DNA from: Bacillota bacterium
GTDB taxonomy: Bacteria; Bacillota; Limnochordia; Darwinibacteriales; Darwinibacteriaceae
Direction: 5' to 3'
Length of the DNA stretch: 40,092 bases
NCBI GenBank assembly: GCA_012521335.1
Contig: JAAYMM010000018.1
Location: 1 to 40,092, forward strand
Shown here: positions 6,099 through 14,756 of the stretch, piece after piece
How the letters are laid out: each line of letters begins with the position of its first letter
Position numbering within the stretch: position 1 is the first letter of the stretch
Program-made: the position numbers and the translations under genes
Notes under the pieces: model-generated
The model's input: only the letters and a program-made list of their open reading frames with translations
What the model was told of the DNA's origin: nothing
Database searches by the model: none

Positions 6099-6650
6099 AT
6101 GAACAAGGTGAGAGCTGCCCTATTGGCCCTCTGCCTCGTCCTGGCTTTTCCGGGAGCGGTGTGGGCCTTGGACTCAGCTGATGTGCCAGTGACCGTGAAG
6201 ATCCCGCAGATGATCATTCTGGAGCTGGATGCCACCGAGCTGGTCTTTGAGGAAGCGGACTTCGATTACGTCCTCGGCCCGGCTCAGCTCGTTAAGGTGG
6301 GCGTGGTTGCCACCAAGGAACAGGCCGTGACTGCCACGGTATCGGGGAACGTACCCTACACACTCTCTATCGCGGCCCTGGAAGAGTACCTTATCGGAGC
6401 ATACGGCGGGCTGATTCATATCTCGCAGCTGAAGTGGCGACTCACGGACAGCGACAACCCTGAGCATTGGGAGCCCCTCACTCTGGACAGGGTGCCGGTA
6501 AAGAGCGGGCCGCCGGGCACCATGGAGGTGAGATTTGACTTCCAGTTAACCGCCCTATGGGAAAACCCAGCTCAAATGTACACGGGGAACATACTGCTGA
6601 CTGTGATCCCTGAAGAAAGCGAAGAGATGTCACAGGGAAGCAAGTGGTAA
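6099..6650 (+). CDS. Exported beta-sandwich-like protein, possible surface-structure subunit
   Basis: I do not recognise a named family with certainty. The 183-residue product has a clear Sec signal peptide (cleavage near AVWA-LD, residue 23), so it is secreted or periplasmic. The mature part starts with a VPVTVKIP strand and ends with an alternating hydrophobic strand containing YTGNILLTV. This Tyr-x-Gly then strand-of-branched-residues ending recurs in three other exported proteins in this block (ends at 10053, 11816 and 12602) and resembles DUF4402 or spore-coat-U-like domains. A GGAGGTG site precedes the ATG. The secretin gene starts 24 bases later, so it is the first gene of a five-gene operon. 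A structural subunit or a periplasmic accessory protein are both possible. Confidence 0.7.
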   Translation: MNKVRAALLALCLVLAFPGAVWALDSADVPVTVKIPQMIILELDATELVFEEADFDYVLGPAQLVKVGVVATKEQAVTATVSGNVPYTLSIAALEEYLIGAYGGLIHISQLKWRLTDSDNPEHWEPLTLDRVPVKSGPPGTMEVRFDFQLTALWENPAQMYTGNILLTVIPEESEEMSQGSKW

Positions 6651-6674
6651 AGCACTCTCAAAGGAGGGAAAGGT

Positions 6675-7844
6675 GTGAAGAAGAAAGGCTGTGCCTTTGT
6701 GCTTCTTGTTGTTATGCTGGTGAGCCTGGGAGCCGCAGCGGAAGAAGCGCAGCCCTTGGTGAACCTGTTTTTGTTTGAAACTAACATTCGGGACGCCTTA
6801 AGCGAGATCAGTATGCAGACCGGGGTGAATATTATCCCCGATAGTACGGTGAGCGGTCTGGTTACGGTGGACCTGCAGGATGTACCTCTGGAGCGGGCCC
6901 TGCGCATGATCCTCATCGGCGGAGGCTACGCTTTCAGAAAGATTGACGACTTCTACCTGGTCGGACTGCCCGATCCCCGCAGCACTACGTTTGGAGAGTT
7001 GACAGAAACCCAGATCGTGTTGCTCGAGCATGTGAGCGCGGGTCATGTGCTGTCGGCACTGCCCTCGTTTTTGACCAGCTATGTGAAGGGCGACAAAGAC
7101 GGACGCCTGTTGACGATCACGGCTCCTCCAGCCGAACTGGATAGAATCCTCGAACTTATCGATACCCTTGATGCGCCGCCTCAACAGGTGGAGATCCAGG
7201 TGATCGTCACAGAGGTTTCTACCAAAGCGCTGAAGGAATTGGGGTTTAACCTCTTTGAGTTTTCCTTCGGAGCGGGCACAGATTGGAACGACAACTGGAC
7301 AGCCAAGATCGGCCTTGGCGGTACAGCCCTGTCCCTGGAAACCACTCTCTTGGGAAACCTGCTGATGAATCTCAAGGCTCTGGAGGAAGACCAGGAAGCT
7401 GTGATCCATGCTGACCCCAGAGTGCTGGTGAGCGATGGCCAATCCGCCCATCTCTTCGTGGGCGACCGCCAGATCTTGCTGCTGACTGACGCCAATGACA
7501 AGACCACGCGGGTGGAACGGGTGGAAGTGGGGATGGATCTGAAGGTGACTCCCCGCATCCTGGGCGAGGAGATTCTCTTGTCCATCTCTCCGGAGATGAG
7601 CCACTTCGTCAACGAATCCAAGAGCAGCTTGACGGTGAAGCAGAGTTTAGTCTCCACAACAGTGCGTTTGAAAAACGGGCAGACAGCCGTTTTGGCTGGG
7701 ATGACGCTGCAAGAGTCAGGTGACCAAACCAAGAAGGTCCCTATCCTAGGCGACATTCCCCTCATCCGCTGGCTGTTCCGGAGCGATACCACGCGGGCGG
7801 CAGATAAGGAGCTTCTGGTTTTCGTCACGCCAGTGATTATGTAA
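6675..7844 (+). CDS. Secretin (outer-membrane channel of the GspD/PilQ superfamily)
   Basis: Secretins form large multimeric gates in the outer membrane for secretion systems and type IV pili. The 389-residue product starts at GTG behind an AGGAGGG site and has a Sec signal peptide of about 22 residues. An STN/N0-like domain spans residues about 29-97 and an N1-type secretin_N domain about 111-170. The secretin core runs from about 172 to the end and contains the diagnostic VPILGDIPLIRWLF segment (355-368), then KELLVFVTPVIM at the C-terminus. It is short for the family, with two N domains at most and no S domain. No GspE/PilB ATPase, platform protein or pseudopilin is in the window. It sits directly before a predicted outer-membrane barrel gene. 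Confidence 0.93.
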   Translation: MKKKGCAFVLLVVMLVSLGAAAEEAQPLVNLFLFETNIRDALSEISMQTGVNIIPDSTVSGLVTVDLQDVPLERALRMILIGGGYAFRKIDDFYLVGLPDPRSTTFGELTETQIVLLEHVSAGHVLSALPSFLTSYVKGDKDGRLLTITAPPAELDRILELIDTLDAPPQQVEIQVIVTEVSTKALKELGFNLFEFSFGAGTDWNDNWTAKIGLGGTALSLETTLLGNLLMNLKALEEDQEAVIHADPRVLVSDGQSAHLFVGDRQILLLTDANDKTTRVERVEVGMDLKVTPRILGEEILLSISPEMSHFVNESKSSLTVKQSLVSTTVRLKNGQTAVLAGMTLQESGDQTKKVPILGDIPLIRWLFRSDTTRAADKELLVFVTPVIM

Positions 7845-7857
7845 TGGGGGGATGGTC

Positions 7858-9162
7858 ATGAGACTGCACAGGGGTAAGGGCAGTGTGCGTGCACTGCTCT
7901 TCTGCCTAGTGTTTGTGTTGATCGCCTCTCCTCCGATCACGGCGTACGAAGCGTGGAGTGTGGATATGGCTCAGATGCTGATGGCTGAAGACTGGGATTT
8001 GGGTCAGGAGCAGGAAACCGCCGTGGTGGGTTACCTGATCCACCTGGTGGAAATAGAGCGCGGTGTGGCCCAGGCCCTGAGTTTCCAGATGGACTTGGCC
8101 AGCGCCGAAACCCCGGGACTATGGTTGGTTGCTGGTGAGGGGTTGGATCTCACGGTCAAGGGAGGCAGCCCCTTAACCTGGTCTGCCCAATCCCAGGTCT
8201 ATGTGGGCCGAAACCAGCAGGCCTTAAGTTACGATTCGTGGCTGCTCACCGTGGATGGCCAGCCCTTGCGTGTGGATGTATCCAAAACCAAGGTGCCTGC
8301 GGATCCCCATGCACCCAAACAAGAGCAGTTGGAGATCACCATCTTCCCCAAGAAGGTGCTGGGTGAGCGCATTGAGTCGGAGATCCACATCGCCTATCAG
8401 ACCTTTCAGGGGACCGTGGCGCAAGTGGCAACGACCCACTGGGTGGGCCCCGAGGCGGACCAACCTGTAGCTGTAGTTTCCCGCCAGGTAAACCGCGGTA
8501 AGACGCAGGAGTATCAGTATTTCGCGGTCTATGTGGCGGGCATGCTCATTCCCCATGAACTCATCCCCGAACACGCCCAGTTCTTGTCTATGGGTTCCAT
8601 CGCCGGTCTTGAGCGGTTTATGGAAACGGCCGTTCCTGAGCAGCGCTGGGTGGAACTGGGAGTGAGCCTGAGCCGGGGGCAAGAAGAGTGGGGTTGGCGG
8701 CTGGATGGTTCATTTCCGCTAGGAGACAAGCATAGGATCTATGGACAGGTTAAGTCTCTCCCACAGCCCGCCTATCTCATGGGTGCGGAAGGTTCTCTGA
8801 ACCCTGAGCTTCACTTTGTGGTTGAAGCGGCTAGCGGCAGGGGAGAAGGGCCGTTCCTGCGTTTCGGCATTCGCGACGAGGTCCGTCTAAGTGAAAACCT
8901 GCGCCTTTCGGCAGCCCTCCTGCCCCTAACATTCAGCTTCGAGAGTTGGAAACCGGATCTCACGCTCGATTGGAGAATCAGGGCGGAGTTCGTTGAAGAG
9001 AAGTACGAGCTGTGGTACCAGCTGGACCATGAACGGGACGAGTTCAGACACAGTGCAGGAGCAACGATTTTTCCAACTCAGAAGGTGGGGGCCAAAGTAT
9101 CGTGGACCTGGGATGGCGAAAGCGGCAGCGTGTTCTTGGTGGGGCTTGAGGTCAGGTTTTAG
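7858..9162 (+). CDS. Predicted outer-membrane beta-barrel protein with N-terminal beta domain
   Basis: No named family recognised. I prefer the ATG at 7858 to the one at 7852 because the G-rich ribosome-binding site abuts the latter. The 434-residue product has a signal peptide (cleavage near residue 30), a short region (YEAWSVDMAQML) and a beta-rich middle domain. From about residue 255 to the end there are repeated amphipathic strands alternating polar and aromatic or hydrophobic residues, with turns such as DGSFPLGDKH and ESWKPDLT. The last residues, VFLVGLEVRF, end in Phe, which is the classic C-terminal signature read by the BamA machinery. The gene is 13 bases after the secretin, suggesting a shared outer-membrane function. 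The barrel is inferred from sequence pattern only. Confidence 0.7.
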   Translation: MRLHRGKGSVRALLFCLVFVLIASPPITAYEAWSVDMAQMLMAEDWDLGQEQETAVVGYLIHLVEIERGVAQALSFQMDLASAETPGLWLVAGEGLDLTVKGGSPLTWSAQSQVYVGRNQQALSYDSWLLTVDGQPLRVDVSKTKVPADPHAPKQEQLEITIFPKKVLGERIESEIHIAYQTFQGTVAQVATTHWVGPEADQPVAVVSRQVNRGKTQEYQYFAVYVAGMLIPHELIPEHAQFLSMGSIAGLERFMETAVPEQRWVELGVSLSRGQEEWGWRLDGSFPLGDKHRIYGQVKSLPQPAYLMGAEGSLNPELHFVVEAASGRGEGPFLRFGIRDEVRLSENLRLSAALLPLTFSFESWKPDLTLDWRIRAEFVEEKYELWYQLDHERDEFRHSAGATIFPTQKVGAKVSWTWDGESGSVFLVGLEVRF

Positions 9163-9177
9163 AGGGGAGGGATGGCC

Positions 9178-10053
9178 GTGAAGAAAAGGAACTTTGGGGC
9201 ATTTGTGTTGCTCTTGATTGCAGTAGTCCTGGGCGAAGCAGCTCAGTCTCAGGATGTCTACAGGGTTGATGGTGGACCTTTGAGGTGGGTGCTGGAAGGC
9301 CAACCAAGTCCTTCCAACTTGGCTCAGTATGTGGAGTTCAGGTTGATTAGGGAAGGTGCCGAACCAGTTGACCTGAACTTCAGCCTGTCAGCACTCGTGG
9401 ATGATCTGCACAACGAGTTTCCCAGGGAATTACTCGCGTTGCGCACTCCATACGACTCTGAGGAGCAGCGGTGGGACCTTATTCCTACCGAGAAATGTCT
9501 GCTGGCCGCGGCTGATGAGTTCGCCGATCTTCAGCTGGGCGTGTATTACACCGAAACTGTTGCGGCAGGCACGTACACTGGTTCGTTGCGTTCCGATGCC
9601 GGTGGGGAGATTCCTTTAGAGATAGTGGTCAAACCATTTACGGCGGTAGTCATCGATTCGGCGCAGATCAAGTTGGAAGCTCTAGGCGGCCCAGGAATCT
9701 ACCGGATAAGCGAACCGATCCAGGTATGCGTCCGAGCCAATCACAGCAACTGGGTTGCCCGCTTTAGTTCTCCGGGATTGCTGCCTGTGGACGATTTGAC
9801 CGGTGTGAGCAGACCATTAGCATCATGGGAACAGAGCTCTGAACGTACGGCGGTGCCAGTACCCCTCTTGTTCATTGACCTGAGTTCCGACCAGGAAGCG
9901 GAGTCGGGTTCAGAAGTGCTTCAGGTAACGGGGGCTGAGTACGGTTGGCAGGCGATCATAGAATTCACGATTCAGGCGCGGGTTGGTTGGGAGCACCCCG
10001 CTGGCGAGTATGTCGGTGTCATAAGGGTTGATCTTGAGGAAGTCGATGAATAG
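9178..10053 (+). CDS. Exported two-domain beta-sandwich-like protein
   Basis: Function not recognised. GTG at 9178 is preferred over ATG at 9172 because the GAGGGGAGGG site ends right before 9172. The product of about 291 residues begins with a Lys-Lys-Arg n-region and a hydrophobic core, cleaved near AQSQ-DV, so it is exported. The mature part seems to hold two similar halves. The first ends with a strand around GTYTGSLRSD, the second with GEYVGVIRVDLEE, each matching the Tyr-x-Gly-hydrophobic ending of the operon's first gene. It follows the barrel gene by 15 bases and precedes the DUF916-like gene by 18 bases. A structural or adaptor subunit of the same assembly is a reasonable inference; a carbohydrate-binding role is not excluded. 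Confidence 0.65.
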   Translation: MKKRNFGAFVLLLIAVVLGEAAQSQDVYRVDGGPLRWVLEGQPSPSNLAQYVEFRLIREGAEPVDLNFSLSALVDDLHNEFPRELLALRTPYDSEEQRWDLIPTEKCLLAAADEFADLQLGVYYTETVAAGTYTGSLRSDAGGEIPLEIVVKPFTAVVIDSAQIKLEALGGPGIYRISEPIQVCVRANHSNWVARFSSPGLLPVDDLTGVSRPLASWEQSSERTAVPVPLLFIDLSSDQEAESGSEVLQVTGAEYGWQAIIEFTIQARVGWEHPAGEYVGVIRVDLEEVDE

Positions 10054-10071
10054 AACAGGGAGGGGAGATTT

Positions 10072-11592
10072 TTGGTTCTCCAAGGAAGAAAACTCGCGTT
10101 CATTTATCTGCTTGTATTGGGCGTGTCCTTGTTTTTCGCCGATGCAGTAGCTGCCATCGGGGTACGGCCGCTTGTTCTGGAGCTCAATGTGCGGCCGGGG
10201 GATGTGAGGGATTTTGAGATAGCACTCCTCCCAGGACTGACTGAGGAGATAGTCGATTTGACGCTCTATGAGCCAGTGCAGCAGTTGAGTGGGGCGTTGG
10301 CCTACCAGCTACCAGAAAACCCGGCTTTTTCGGCAACCAGTTGGGTGAACCTTGAGCGGAATGTGGTGCGGGTGTACCCTGATGAAGAGGCTAAGGTAAC
10401 TGGGCGGGTGACAGTCCCCTTTTCAGCCAGCGGATCCCATACGGTGATCATCATGGTAGAACCCAGACCGCCGGAAATCACCGCTGGCATTTCTCTTCAA
10501 GTCCGTTATGCCGTGCGCCTCAGCATTCGTGTGGAGCGTCCCGGGCAGCGGCAGGTGGCCGACCTAGATGAGTTCAGCCTACAACCCGGTGACAGGGGTC
10601 AACCGGTTGTACGGACTGTGCTGAAGAATCCTTCACCTTGGGACTACCTGGTGGAGGGGGAGGCAACCATCCGTGATGCCGACGGTCGCTTAGTGGAACG
10701 GATTGCGCTAGTCAGCCCAGCGACCCGCGGCTCGGAGCAGCAGGCCCTTCGACTCTATCCTGGAGCGCGGGTGGAGTTCCTGGGTGAAGTGACCAAGCGC
10801 CTGCAGCCAGGAGACTATTCGTTAAGAATCTACTTCCGCTACGGTGATCACGGACAGATCATTAAGAACGAGACCATTTCCATCGCCGAAGGAGACTTCA
10901 TCTTCCCGAACGCAGACGAACTGGGCGTCTTTTCCATTGCCCCAGAAGCAATCGAGTATGCGGCCAAGCCAGGTGAGAGGAAGAGCCAAGTGCTGGAGTT
11001 CTTGAGCGAAACCGCCGATAGTGTGCGCATGGTTGTAGAGCCCCGGCCCGTAGCTGTTGATTATCCCTACTCGCTCAGCGATTGGCTTCAGTTGCGCATG
11101 TCGGGAAACGAGTTTGAGTTACCGGGGCGTAGGAACACCAGGCTTGGTCTGACCATCGCCATTCCCAGAGACGTCGCTGATGGCAGTTATCATGGAACCA
11201 TAGTGGTGCAGGCCCTTGACCCGGTCACCAGTAAACTGCTTACCGAAAAGCTCATACCAGTGACCGTAGTGGTGGGGGAGGAACACAAAAAGAGTGTGGA
11301 AGTGCGCAACCTAGTGGCGGCTCAAGGTGAACTGGTACTCGATCTTTTCAACGCCGGGAACGTGTTCATCAGTCCCCGAGGAGAGGCGCTGATCATAGAC
11401 AGCAGAGGTGAGTCGGTGGCCAGAGTGGTGCTCACGCTTCCTGACGGTGAGAGGGGAATAGTTCCCTTGGGGAGACAGCGCCTGGAGGGCCGGACCCCCA
11501 TTCTGGAACCTGGTTTATATCAGGTTGAGATCTCTATAAAGGATGGGGTCTCTGATCTGCTGGTCGTCACCAGGGAGCTGCAAGTCTTCTAG
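10072..11592 (+). CDS. Large exported protein with DUF916/COG1470-like or chaperone-like beta domains
   Basis: The start is TTG, fixed by a GGGAGGGGAG site 4-5 bases upstream. The 506-residue product has a signal peptide (cleavage near AVAA-IG, about residue 28). Next comes a segment IGVRPLVLELNVRPGDVRDFEI, in the style of proteins with DUF916-like or fimbrial-chaperone-like Ig domains, where a Pro-Gly-x-x strand precedes an alternating strand. A second similar unit begins near residue 165 (FSLQPGDRGQPVVRTVLKNP) and a third near residue 285 (GVFSIAPEAIEYAAKPGERKSQ). No C-terminal membrane anchor is visible, so it is probably soluble periplasmic or surface-bound. It is the last gene of the operon. 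Possible roles are subunit chaperone, stalk or adhesin; none is proven by sequence. Confidence 0.65.
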   Translation: MVLQGRKLAFIYLLVLGVSLFFADAVAAIGVRPLVLELNVRPGDVRDFEIALLPGLTEEIVDLTLYEPVQQLSGALAYQLPENPAFSATSWVNLERNVVRVYPDEEAKVTGRVTVPFSASGSHTVIIMVEPRPPEITAGISLQVRYAVRLSIRVERPGQRQVADLDEFSLQPGDRGQPVVRTVLKNPSPWDYLVEGEATIRDADGRLVERIALVSPATRGSEQQALRLYPGARVEFLGEVTKRLQPGDYSLRIYFRYGDHGQIIKNETISIAEGDFIFPNADELGVFSIAPEAIEYAAKPGERKSQVLEFLSETADSVRMVVEPRPVAVDYPYSLSDWLQLRMSGNEFELPGRRNTRLGLTIAIPRDVADGSYHGTIVVQALDPVTSKLLTEKLIPVTVVVGEEHKKSVEVRNLVAAQGELVLDLFNAGNVFISPRGEALIIDSRGESVARVVLTLPDGERGIVPLGRQRLEGRTPILEPGLYQVEISIKDGVSDLLVVTRELQVF

Positions 11593-11711
11593 CCAGAGCC
11601 GGTAGCAAGAAAACTTTCTTCGCTCGCCACGTATGATGCGCAATTTGCTGCGACAGTCTCCTGCGGAGGCTGGCCGCTGCGAACCACTATCCTAACCACA
11701 AGGGGCAGAAG

Positions 11712-11750
11712 AAGACGGGCTGTTGGCGCACATTGCCAACAGCCCGTCTT
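11712..11750. terminator. Bidirectional terminator between convergent exported-protein operons
   Basis: A perfect 16-base-pair inverted repeat (11712-11727 with 11735-11750) with a 7-base loop ends in short T-rich stretches on both strands. It lies between the plus-strand operon ending at 11592 and the minus-strand gene ending at 11816. The rest of 11593-11815 shows no gene. Confidence 0.85.
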
Positions 11751-11815
11751 GGTCTTACACATTCTTCGGGTCAAGCCCGATGATGCTCGGACTTTTCGTC
11801 AGACGCACCTGGTTG

Positions 11816-12523
11816 TTACTTGGAAACCGTGACTATGATCTGTCCTACATAGTTGCCAGCCGGTTGGCTGGAGATTTCGTCGGTGCTGGCGAATCCGAAT
11901 ACCTGGAAGGCGTAAAGGCCGTTTCGCCTTACGTGATTGCTGACAGCGTCTTTGTCTTCTTCCCAATCATCCTCAGGCCAGAAATTCGTTTTGAACGATT
12001 TGAGAACCCTATCCAGGATCTGTTCAAAGACCCTGCCGTTGTCTTTGCGAGGAGCTTTACCGGCTTCCCCGAAATAGCCAATCTCTTCATAGGGCTGAAT
12101 CTGTTCCGGGACGTTTATAAAGAGCCAGGGTTCAGGAAGCGGGTCGACTCCTCTGGAGAGCCATGCCCAGTATCTGGTAAGCATGGCATCACCGGTCACC
12201 GTGTGCCTGAGAGACCTTCCGTGGAACGAGACTGTCAGATCGGTGTTGGTTTCTAGGATAAAGCAGTTGCTGTCTGCGGCTTTCCCGTATCCATCCTCCC
12301 CGGTGTAATACCCGAAATCCATCCCTGGTTCGCCCTCTTTCCAGAAAAGCCACCAGCAGTCTTGCAGTACGACCTTCTGCGCTTCTATTTTGGCGTAAGG
12401 GCCTACAGTGACGGAAGCTTCAACAGTCTCGGATATTCCGGCCCCCGGATTGCCGTCAGCAGCCAGAGCACCTGTTGACAAGACAAACAGCAGGCACAGG
12501 GTCAATAACACTAGTTTTTTCAT
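11816..12523 (-). CDS. Secreted protein with VTVGPYAKI motif, paralogue of the neighbouring gene
   Basis: Function not recognised. The 235-residue product starts at an ATG with a GGAGG site 6 bases upstream and has a typical signal peptide (cleavage near GALA-AD, residue 22). The mature N-terminus contains EASVTVGPYAKIEAQ and the C-terminus ends GNYVGQIIVTVSK. Both motifs are shared with the upstream gene product (SATIGPYAKITAG and SYSGVLTITVTKN). The central part is rich in Trp, Phe and acidic residues and differs between the two. The architecture resembles small secreted beta-sandwich proteins of the DUF4402 or spore-coat-U type. It lies 78 bases after its paralogue, with a hairpin between, and converges on the secretin operon. 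Confidence 0.65.
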   Translation of the reverse strand: MKKLVLLTLCLLFVLSTGALAADGNPGAGISETVEASVTVGPYAKIEAQKVVLQDCWWLFWKEGEPGMDFGYYTGEDGYGKAADSNCFILETNTDLTVSFHGRSLRHTVTGDAMLTRYWAWLSRGVDPLPEPWLFINVPEQIQPYEEIGYFGEAGKAPRKDNGRVFEQILDRVLKSFKTNFWPEDDWEEDKDAVSNHVRRNGLYAFQVFGFASTDEISSQPAGNYVGQIIVTVSK

Positions 12524-12549
12524 GGCTGGCCTCCTTCATATGTCCATTG

Positions 12550-12580
12550 AAAGGGGCCCGCACGGCCCCTTTGCGTTTTT
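12550..12580. terminator. Hairpin between the two paralogous secreted-protein genes
   Basis: A 9-base-pair inverted repeat (12550-12558 with 12564-12572) with a 5-base loop lies 30 bases downstream of the minus-strand gene ending at 12602 and just upstream of the next gene's ribosome-binding site. The T-run (12576-12580) is on the plus strand, so on the minus strand it may act as a partial terminator or mRNA stabiliser. Confidence 0.55.
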
Positions 12581-12601
12581 GAGCTCTGTGAAGCGCTTCT
12601 C

Positions 12602-13210
12602 CTAGTTCTTGGTTACAGTGATAGTGAGAACGCCACTGTAGGAGTCAGCCTTCTGATCGCTGATACTCCGAATCCAGATAGCACCATTGATGCCGTACAG
12701 CTGTTCTCGCTTCTGGTACTCGTGGACAAACGATTTGCCATAGCCTACAAGATCGAAGTTGGCTGCTGCCCAGGCTTTCACTACATCGGGTTCGCCTGCC
12801 TTGGCGATTCCGAACAGGGTTGGGGATTCTAGCCAGTCTTTGTCGTCAAATTCCACCTGGATCAGTACATCGCAGTTGGATTCGATGTAGAAGGAGCCCC
12901 AGCCTCCATCGTTGTTGCTGACAAAGAGGTTTTCGTCGACCACAAGACCGAACACCTCAGCTGCGTGGTAGAACTGTTCTGCTGTCGCGTCAAAATCGTT
13001 GGCCGTGTAAAGCCCCACTTTGCCCAGGAGTTCACCGAACTGGACAGGCCTCCCCGCCGTGATCTTGGCATATGGTCCAATGGTGGCCGAGACGTCGATC
13101 GTCGCTGAAAGCGATTGCCCTTTGAGTGTCCCCGCGCCTGCAGCAGAAGTCACTGCAGCCAGGCCCAGAACCAACACTGCGGCCAAAACGAAACTCATGT
13201 ACCTTTTCAT
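12602..13210 (-). CDS. Secreted protein with ATIGPYAKI motif, paralogue of the downstream gene
   Basis: Function not recognised. The 202-residue product has an AGGAGG site 7 bases before its ATG and a signal peptide cleaved near TSAA-GA (about residue 24). The mature N-terminus carries TIDVSATIGPYAKITAG and the protein ends SYSGVLTITVTKN, a framework shared with the 235-residue neighbour. The middle region (residues about 65-175) is unrelated between the two by eye. Small size, export and the repeated beta-strand framework suggest a surface or periplasmic structural protein. It is the first gene after a 337-base non-coding region that separates it from the divergent EAL-HDOD gene. Confidence 0.65.
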   Translation of the reverse strand: MKRYMSFVLAAVLVLGLAAVTSAAGAGTLKGQSLSATIDVSATIGPYAKITAGRPVQFGELLGKVGLYTANDFDATAEQFYHAAEVFGLVVDENLFVSNNDGGWGSFYIESNCDVLIQVEFDDKDWLESPTLFGIAKAGEPDVVKAWAAANFDLVGYGKSFVHEYQKREQLYGINGAIWIRSISDQKADSYSGVLTITVTKN

Positions 13211-13547
13211 TGCGTATCCTCCTCTATTTGGCTAGTCTTCAGACTTGTCGGCACATGTGCGCCATATCTAGCGTAGAACTGGGTTTCCCCATCACCACCT
13301 CCCTTGGCTTAGACAGGTTGTACACCCTTACCAATCTTAGGGTATTCCGCCAGATTGCGACTTATGCACTGATTCAGGCTGCGTGGAAAACTGCCTTTCT
13401 CCAGTTATGCTGGCCTCCCTTGGGATTGGTGGTGTCAGCCAGTGCTATCCTTCCCAAAATCTGGGCCGGCTATGCACAGGAAATAGCAAGTTATGGTAGA
13501 AATGTTAAAATGTTGAGATGACCAATGCGTGGGGAAGGGTGAGGGAG
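13211..13547. other. 337-base intergenic region between divergent genes, rich in inverted repeats
   Basis: No convincing gene is present. The region holds a perfect 10-base palindrome (13251-13260), a short inverted repeat AGTCT-TC-AGACT (13234-13245), a GAAA-capped hairpin on the minus strand near 13279-13290, and a CCCT/AGGG hairpin near 13325-13342. It must contain the promoters for the secreted-protein gene (minus) and the EAL-HDOD gene (plus), but I could not identify convincing -35/-10 pairs. A structured leader RNA for the minus-strand gene is possible. Confidence 0.4.
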
Positions 13548-14756
13548 ATGAACGTGTTCCTCGCACGTCAGCCCATCTTGGATGTCAAGCAGAGGATCCG
13601 CGCCTATGAAATCCTGTACCGCAGCGGTTACACTAACCACTACCTGGCCGCGGATCCCGATGAAGCATCATCCATCGTGGTACTGGATACCTTTCAACAC
13701 CTGGGATTAGACTCGCTTACGGGGGGCAGCCCAGCCTTCATCAACTTCTCCAGTAGGCTTCTGGAAATGGATATTGCCACACTCTTTCCCGCGAGGTACC
13801 TGGTGATCGAGCTTTTGGAAACGGTAGATTGCCGTCCCGAGGTTCTGCAAAAATGCCGCGAGCTCAAGGCTCTTGGGTACACCATTGCCCTCGATGACTT
13901 CGTGTACAGTTCCAGCAGCGAAGCACTGTTGGGCGTGGCTGACATCGTTAAGATTGACTTCCAAGCAGCTGATTCTTCTCAGTTGCGCTGGTTGGTGCCC
14001 GAGCTCAAGGCGCGCCGGCTCACTCTGCTCGCAGAAAAAGTGGAAAGCTGGGAAGAGCTCAGGCTCGCCTGCGAGCTGGGCTTCACCATGTTCCAGGGCT
14101 ATTACTTCAGCAGACCGGAGATCGTCACCGCCAAGCGTCTGCTGCCCCTCCAGATGATCTGCCTGGAGCTGATTCGGGCAGTCAACCAACGGCCGCTGGA
14201 CTTCCGCCATGTGGCCGGCATCGTCTCCCGCGATCTCTCCCTTACCTACAGCCTGCTCCGCTTAGTTAACTCTGCAGCGTTCAGCCCCCGTCACAGGATT
14301 GAGTCTGTTCAACAAGCACTGGTGTTCTTGGGCGAGACGGAGATTAAAAAGTGGGTTTCCCTCCTAGCCCTACAGCATATGCGTACCACGAAACTTGATG
14401 CACCCGTTGTTACTTCATTGGTGCGGGGCCGTTTTGCTGAGCTTTTGGCTGAACAGACCCATCTGCGGGAAAAGAGCGGCGCCCTATTTTTGAGTGGTCT
14501 TTTTTCCATGCTGGATGTGCTGCTCCAGCGCCCTTTGGACCTGATCTTGGAAGAGATCGGAGCTCCGCCAGAGGTGCGGCAGCTCCTTTTGGAGGGGACA
14601 GGCCCCTATCGGGACATAGGCAGCCTGGTTCTGGCCTACGAACAGGGCAGGTGGGGAGATATGGAGGAGTACGCCACCAGGCTGCAGCTGGCGGCGGAGA
14701 CGGTCACGCAAGCATATATCGAAGCCATTCAGTGGTGCCCGGGCAGTTTGGAGTAG
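13548..14756 (+). CDS. EAL-HDOD domain signalling protein (YuxH-like)
   Basis: The 402-residue product matches the YuxH-like architecture: an N-terminal EAL-type domain (about residues 1-195) and a C-terminal HDOD domain (about 200-400). ATG at 13548 is chosen because the product then begins MNVFLARQPILD, the standard family start, and a GGGGAAGGG site lies about 9 bases upstream; an in-frame ATG at 13518 is less likely. The canonical Glu-Ala-Leu motif reads ELLE (88-91) and several metal-binding positions look altered. It is therefore probably a non-catalytic c-di-GMP-related or protein-binding module, as in many family members. The HDOD part includes VAGIVSRDLSLTYSLLRLVNSAAF. It is monocistronic, divergent from the secreted-protein pair and upstream of the sugar-sensing genes. 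Confidence 0.9.
   Translation: MNVFLARQPILDVKQRIRAYEILYRSGYTNHYLAADPDEASSIVVLDTFQHLGLDSLTGGSPAFINFSSRLLEMDIATLFPARYLVIELLETVDCRPEVLQKCRELKALGYTIALDDFVYSSSSEALLGVADIVKIDFQAADSSQLRWLVPELKARRLTLLAEKVESWEELRLACELGFTMFQGYYFSRPEIVTAKRLLPLQMICLELIRAVNQRPLDFRHVAGIVSRDLSLTYSLLRLVNSAAFSPRHRIESVQQALVFLGETEIKKWVSLLALQHMRTTKLDAPVVTSLVRGRFAELLAEQTHLREKSGALFLSGLFSMLDVLLQRPLDLILEEIGAPPEVRQLLLEGTGPYRDIGSLVLAYEQGRWGDMEEYATRLQLAAETVTQAYIEAIQWCPGSLE

Follow-up and report, generated by a model that had tools for sequence, protein, structure and literature searches.

Seven neighbouring genes in the 40,092-nt stretch of DNA analysed here (the window) make up a secretin-centred system that recurs in diderm Bacillota, and in relatives the system is independent of the platform and ATPase genes of type IV pili (T4P) and type II secretion (T2SS). 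It is close to certain that these genes form a real, conserved system. With a probability of about one half, we propose that the system exports beta-sandwich subunits through the secretin with the help of a periplasmic chaperone and without a motor, and assembles them at the cell surface.

The window is contig C21 of a 1.72-Mb genome in 93 contigs (95% complete). Five of the genes, W1–W5, form an operon on the + strand with intergenic gaps of 7–24 bp. The first, W1 (6099..6650), is predicted to encode a secreted beta-sandwich-like subunit of 183 aa. It is followed by W2 (6675..7844), a short secretin of 389 aa with the layout N0 (STN), N1 (Secretin_N) and secretin; W3 (7852..9162), a putative secretin-derived periplasmic region with a C-terminal 12-strand outer-membrane barrel (residues ~268–435); W4 (9172..10053), a secreted beta-sandwich-like protein of 293 aa; and W5 (10072..11592), a chaperone-like protein of 506 aa with four Ig-like domains and no membrane anchor. 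Behind the operon, W6 (11816..12523, 235 aa), convergent with it, and W7 (12602..13210, 202 aa) encode further secreted subunits on the − strand. A signal-peptide-like N-terminus is present in every one of the seven, and hydropathy shows no later membrane helix in any of them. An earlier note on this DNA had described two further secreted paralogues facing the operon, and the strand of W6 and W7 together with their profile match (hhalign probability 99.0 across 44 C-terminal columns) bears this out. The gene order given in that note was correct in placing the barrel, W4 and W5 after the secretin; it was wrong in placing both beta-sandwich proteins there, as W1 precedes the secretin. Pfam and NCBIfam searches with W1 and W3–W7 returned no useful direct matches, and a promoter scan gave no signal above chance.

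W2 matched Pfam Secretin (3e-39), Secretin_N (1e-7) and STN (7e-6, just under the cut-off), and it matched NCBIfam PilQ at 4e-47, yet far below the cut-off of that model. Against the PDB, the profile of its family retrieved PilQ (2e-37), GspD (6e-36) and phage pIV (2e-32, covering profile positions 118–395), with further matches to RcpA, InvG and DR_0774. Judged by these homologies, W2 is a bona fide secretin, as the first reading of the window had held. The short layout of N0, N1 and secretin domains in about 400 aa is also that of filamentous-phage pIV, whereas no phage genes were apparent when the loci were read. A phage origin of W2 was set aside. W5 had no match in 50,697 phage records or in 72,556 plasmids. 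Familiar secretins either draw their power from a motor in the cytoplasm or inner membrane or serve the extrusion of phage. Published accounts of secretins in diderm Firmicutes cover those of pili, Tad and T2SS (PMC5007114, PMC6668835).

The C-terminal 168 residues of W3 were modelled by AF2 as 12 antiparallel strands (block pLDDT 87–97 from residue 271), which agrees with the outer-membrane barrel that had been predicted downstream of the secretin. The N-terminal half was modelled poorly, with residues 94–123 below 50, and the secretin-like region of W3 therefore rests on sequence. When only the close W3 family was compared directly with W2, the profiles gave no signal (probability 1.7); the connection runs via intermediates, namely full-length relatives and the third-gene proteins of the type B loci described below. 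The type B proteins aligned with W3 at a probability of 99.6 (E = 1e-24) and with the W2 profile over 181 columns at 96.4 (E = 1e-9), and a joint profile headed by the W3 of the window aligned with W2 over 184 columns at 93 (E = 3e-7). One relative (L120:4487-6082) joins both halves in a single chain: its residues 16–193 match N0–N1 of the W2 model (1e-26), its residues 248–531 match the W3 model (4e-14), and its Pfam STN match is above the cut-off. In a quick tree, W3-type proteins grouped with the W2 secretins, away from the PilQs of pili, on long branches that make the placement unsure. A sequence search of the type B barrels against the PDB gave nothing significant. Through these intermediate relatives, the W3 family can be read as secretins that have decayed and become joined to an outer-membrane barrel, and this secretin ancestry is a new finding of the present study.

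The nearest PDB folds to the W3 barrel are the 12-strand porins KdgM (Foldseek TM 0.71) and NanC, which pass oligogalacturonate and sialate. This likeness would suit a nutrient uptake system in which the beta-sandwich proteins bind substrate at the surface while oligosaccharides or peptides enter through the W3 barrel and the secretin; a peptide ABC transporter also precedes the operon, in a neighbourhood that includes genes for sugar binding and sugar ABC transport. However, 12-strand barrels look alike whatever their function, and we know of no secretin that serves as a nutrient pore. Moreover, the ABC neighbours are not generally conserved beyond the genus, and the distant gene set has a different barrel-like protein of ~300 aa. 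Sugar uptake was set aside, and an uptake function is very unlikely.

The AF2 model of W5 (pLDDT 91.5, 48 sequences) was read from its strand order as four Ig-like units. Among the best 50 of 844 PDB matches in Foldseek, the highest target-normalised TM-scores were those of WxLIP from Enterococcus faecium (9i1y/9i25, TM 0.56–0.62, one entry WxL-bound) and of CsuC in complex with the pilus subunit CsuA/B (6fqa/5d6h, TM 0.54–0.58), with both sets of matches spanning about two of the four W5 domains. In the same best 50, other Ig-repeat proteins ranked higher by E-value with poor superposition, and the resemblance of W5 is therefore at the level of the fold; Ig folds are widespread. W5 had no WxLIP or chaperone sequence-family match in Pfam and nothing significant in a PDB sequence search, and a distant homologue reached Pfam WxLIP_PGBD at E = 0.004, below the cut-off. 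The former description of W5 as DUF916/chaperone-like is supported by the fold resemblance to WxLIP and CsuC; none of the seven window proteins reached DUF916 or DUF4402 by sequence. Separately, open frames of ~300 aa in G271, G341, G301, G324, G388 and other genomes gave weak partial matches to the W5 profile, and these are possibly two-domain chaperones or WxLIP-like proteins.

A C-terminal Y-x-G followed by a hydrophobic strand unites W1, W4, W6 and W7; such an ending, shared by four of the proteins, had originally been noticed. It is absent from W2, W3 and W5 and recurs in 5 of 381 other proteins of at least 120 aa in the loci. Profile comparison linked W4 to W1 and W7, and the subunit profile found only W6, W7 and, weakly, W1 (E = 4e-4) in the genome of the window. 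W1 orthologues occupied the same position in 10 of 19 family loci, and W4 orthologues occurred in type A operons and several more distant loci. Among 57 subunit members, six matched DUF4402 (best 4e-5, 0.6 bit under the cut-off), one weakly matched SCPU and none matched the Pfam WxL domain at E ≤ 1.

W5 was found in 54 of 398 Bacillota genomes drawn from across the phylum. In all 47 judgeable loci (three that ran off contigs and one W5 remnant, L125, were excluded from this count), W5 had a short secretin adjacent or near on the same strand, and subunit-like genes lay no more than 8 kb away in 46 of the 47. Thirty further loci were read for linkage between W5 and W2, and the linked loci come from no fewer than 15 Bacillota family groups in the numbering of the search tool. 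Three arrangements were distinguished. Type A, found in the genus and the family, has the secretin, W1, W3, W4 and W5 in one order; type B, in other family members, runs from the subunits to W5, the secretin and a third gene, and two genomes (G009 and G011) carry both. The more distant type C (L126-L135, L123) has a longer W5, a secreted protein of ~240 aa and often another of ~600 aa, and its third gene encodes the barrel-like protein of ~300 aa. One W5 pattern searched against 84,980 named genomes matched only in Bacillota, under the labels Halanaerobiales, Clostridia, Peptococcaceae and unclassified. The conservation in relatives on which the earlier note had made its proposal depend was therefore found, as the gene set is kept across many diderm Bacillota. 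W5 also tracks the outer membrane. Omp85 was present in 51 of the 54 W5 genomes versus 102 of 398 overall (Fisher p = 7e-32, uncorrected for shared ancestry), and the three W5 genomes without Omp85 had weak W5 matches only. The genome of the window carries Omp85.

This genome also encodes a T4P cluster on a different contig (C50), comprising PilB, PilT, PilC, PilM, PilN, PilO, an STN-domain protein and a 533-aa secretin, with the gene names assigned by order and resemblance. A second T2SSE and T2SSF set lies at C16:1629-4341, apart from the C50 cluster. The presence of a pilus cluster in the genome makes it conceivable that W2 is a spare PilQ for a pilus encoded elsewhere, that is, part of an accessory T4P or DNA-uptake branch. 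In one type C locus, pilins, PilM and a prepilin peptidase directly adjoin the system in convergent orientation (L129:283-4723), and a prepilin peptidase adjoins it in L116-L118, which would also suit such a branch. However, the C50 cluster owns a secretin, and W2 stood apart from the pilus-cluster PilQs in the quick tree. Homologues of PilB, PilT, PilC, PilN and PilO were found in none of the loci searched, and PilM was found only in L129; apart from the pilus genes adjoining that locus, the loci contained no ATPase, inner-membrane platform or prepilins. Furthermore, the T2SSF platform went unmatched in 12 of the 45 system genomes, among them two single contigs; six of these 12 also had no T2SSE match over the cut-off, including both single-contig genomes. 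The first of these, G395 (3.02 Mb), has the secretin of the system as its sole secretin, and the second, G332 (3,817,036 bp), carries two copies of the system. The fragmented G002 and G010 (98 and 97% complete) likewise had one secretin, no T2SSF and no T2SSE over the cut-off. The reading of W2 as a spare PilQ is largely refuted by these two single-contig genomes, G395 and G332, which lacked detectable platform and ATPase genes, and a pilus branch is accordingly a very unlikely explanation.

These results also bear on what the earlier note had said of the secretin's partners. In keeping with the absence that it had described, no ATPase occurred in the loci searched and prepilins were seen only beside L129. 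Type IV pilus genes, which it had named as a possible counter-indication, do exist elsewhere in the genome, in a cluster with a secretin of its own. The central proposal of the note, a distinct system built around a secretin and serving the surface or export, gains support from the conservation of the gene set and from the platform-less single-contig relatives. As a separate observation, G332 contains two more secretin genes without an adjoining W5, at ~1.31 Mb (L139) and ~1.47 Mb (L140) of G332:C1; after the latter comes a gene for a 1315-aa RHS/YD-repeat protein, and a similar stretch is present in L139.

A possible regulator lies next to the system. Divergent from W7, an EAL-HDOD protein is encoded at 13518..14756 on the + strand (Pfam HDOD 2e-18, EAL 1e-14), and phmmer located others at L045:2700-3908, L053:4741-5949 and, as a fragment, L043:1201-1512; EAL-HDOD genes thus neighbour the system in four genomes of the family, counting that of the window, which hints at c-di-GMP-linked control. 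In addition, a BTAD-type transcriptional activator is encoded in or beside the system at 13 loci (L107, L109, L110, L112, L047, L048, L049, L067, L075, L115, L121, L122 and L124), at several of them inside the operon between W3 and W4/W5. Both kinds of neighbour are consistent with a regulated surface structure. In G010, a CRISPR array lies upstream of the secretin (L046:33-1039), with a repeat of ~29 bp at 61-bp spacing and one spacer present twice.

The system thus combines a secreted chaperone and secreted subunits with an outer-membrane gate and barrel and no inner-membrane part, and motor-independent export therefore fits it best. Given the signal-peptide-like starts and the lack of other membrane helices, Sec would carry all parts across the inner membrane. 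In the periplasm, W5 would hold W1, W4, W6 and W7, probably by beta-strand pairing as its fold suggests. W2 would act as the outer-membrane gate with N0–N1 facing the periplasm, as is usual in its family, and W3, whose architecture includes the modelled barrel, may sit beside this gate as a docking, piloting or capping partner. The exported subunits could then join into a fibre or coat via their conserved C-terminal strand, with the energy presumably coming, as for chaperone-usher pili, from the folding of subunits or the exchange of strands. Subunit binding by W5 and strand exchange are both suggested by analogy. Several points count against this reading: the system has no known inner-membrane part, the well-studied bacterial secretins are motor-driven, pilus genes adjoin L129 and a prepilin peptidase adjoins L116-L118, and the Foldseek matches of W5 cover two of its four domains in a widespread fold.

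The same components could instead build a structural envelope complex in which W2, W3 and W5 anchor a WxL-like coat or S-layer and the secretin is a static gated pore. W5 resembles WxLIP, whose proposed role is to keep WxL proteins at the Gram-positive wall, and for WxL clusters the insertion of a DUF916 beta-hairpin into WxL has been predicted (PMC10599100). A solved secretin, DR_0774, annotated as a type IV piliation protein, is a further point in favour of such a complex. Limnochordia are known diderms, and thin-sectioned isolates reveal an S-layer and envelope filaments; the genome of strain L945, in which an S-layer was seen, yielded no S-layer protein (PMC11456536). The system is a candidate, no more, for the Limnochordia S-layer or envelope filaments. 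However, W5 lacks a membrane anchor, its closest Ig-pair matches (best 50 of 844) include the true export chaperone CsuC, and even a coat would have to cross the outer membrane, where the operon offers no obvious route other than the secretin. A purely structural complex is thus unlikely, albeit a less remote prospect than a pilus branch or nutrient uptake.

The building blocks of the system are of known kinds, and their combination matches none of the known systems compared. Like archaic chaperone-usher (Csu) pili, the system has a putative periplasmic chaperone with a predicted tandem Ig fold (matched by CsuC over about two domains, as above), secreted beta-sandwich-like proteins that are small and end in a conserved strand, and no cytoplasmic ATPase. 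Unlike them, it has four Ig domains in the chaperone-like protein instead of two and a secretin with a secretin-derived barrel in place of the usher, and Pfam Usher (PF00577) had no match among the seven window proteins. Gram-positive WxL clusters (WxLIP/DUF916-DUF3324) resemble it in the Ig pair of W5, which matches 9i1y/9i25 by structure only, and in the adjacent small secreted beta proteins. In contrast, W5 has no hydrophobic segment after its signal peptide and thus lacks the C-terminal membrane helix of WxLIP, the 57 subunits have no Pfam WxL, and the secretin and outer-membrane barrels are additional here. T4P, T2SS and Tad systems are related through the homology of W2 to PilQ, GspD and RcpA, and differ in that no platform or ATPase was detected in some single-contig system genomes. 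The gene set was undescribed in the literature searched (open-licence papers). At somewhat short of even odds, we suggest that it represents a separate export class of diderm Firmicutes, in which a secretin, a WxLIP/CsuC-like chaperone and a secretin-derived barrel produce fibres or coats without a motor. If so, this class would parallel the chaperone-usher pathway in function, with a secretin replacing the usher, and the secretin fold could serve a motor-independent pathway. It may also link the Gram-positive WxL surface system to a diderm precursor, and such a possible diderm relative of WxL and WxLIP proteins would bear on how the surface of Firmicutes changed when the outer membrane was lost.
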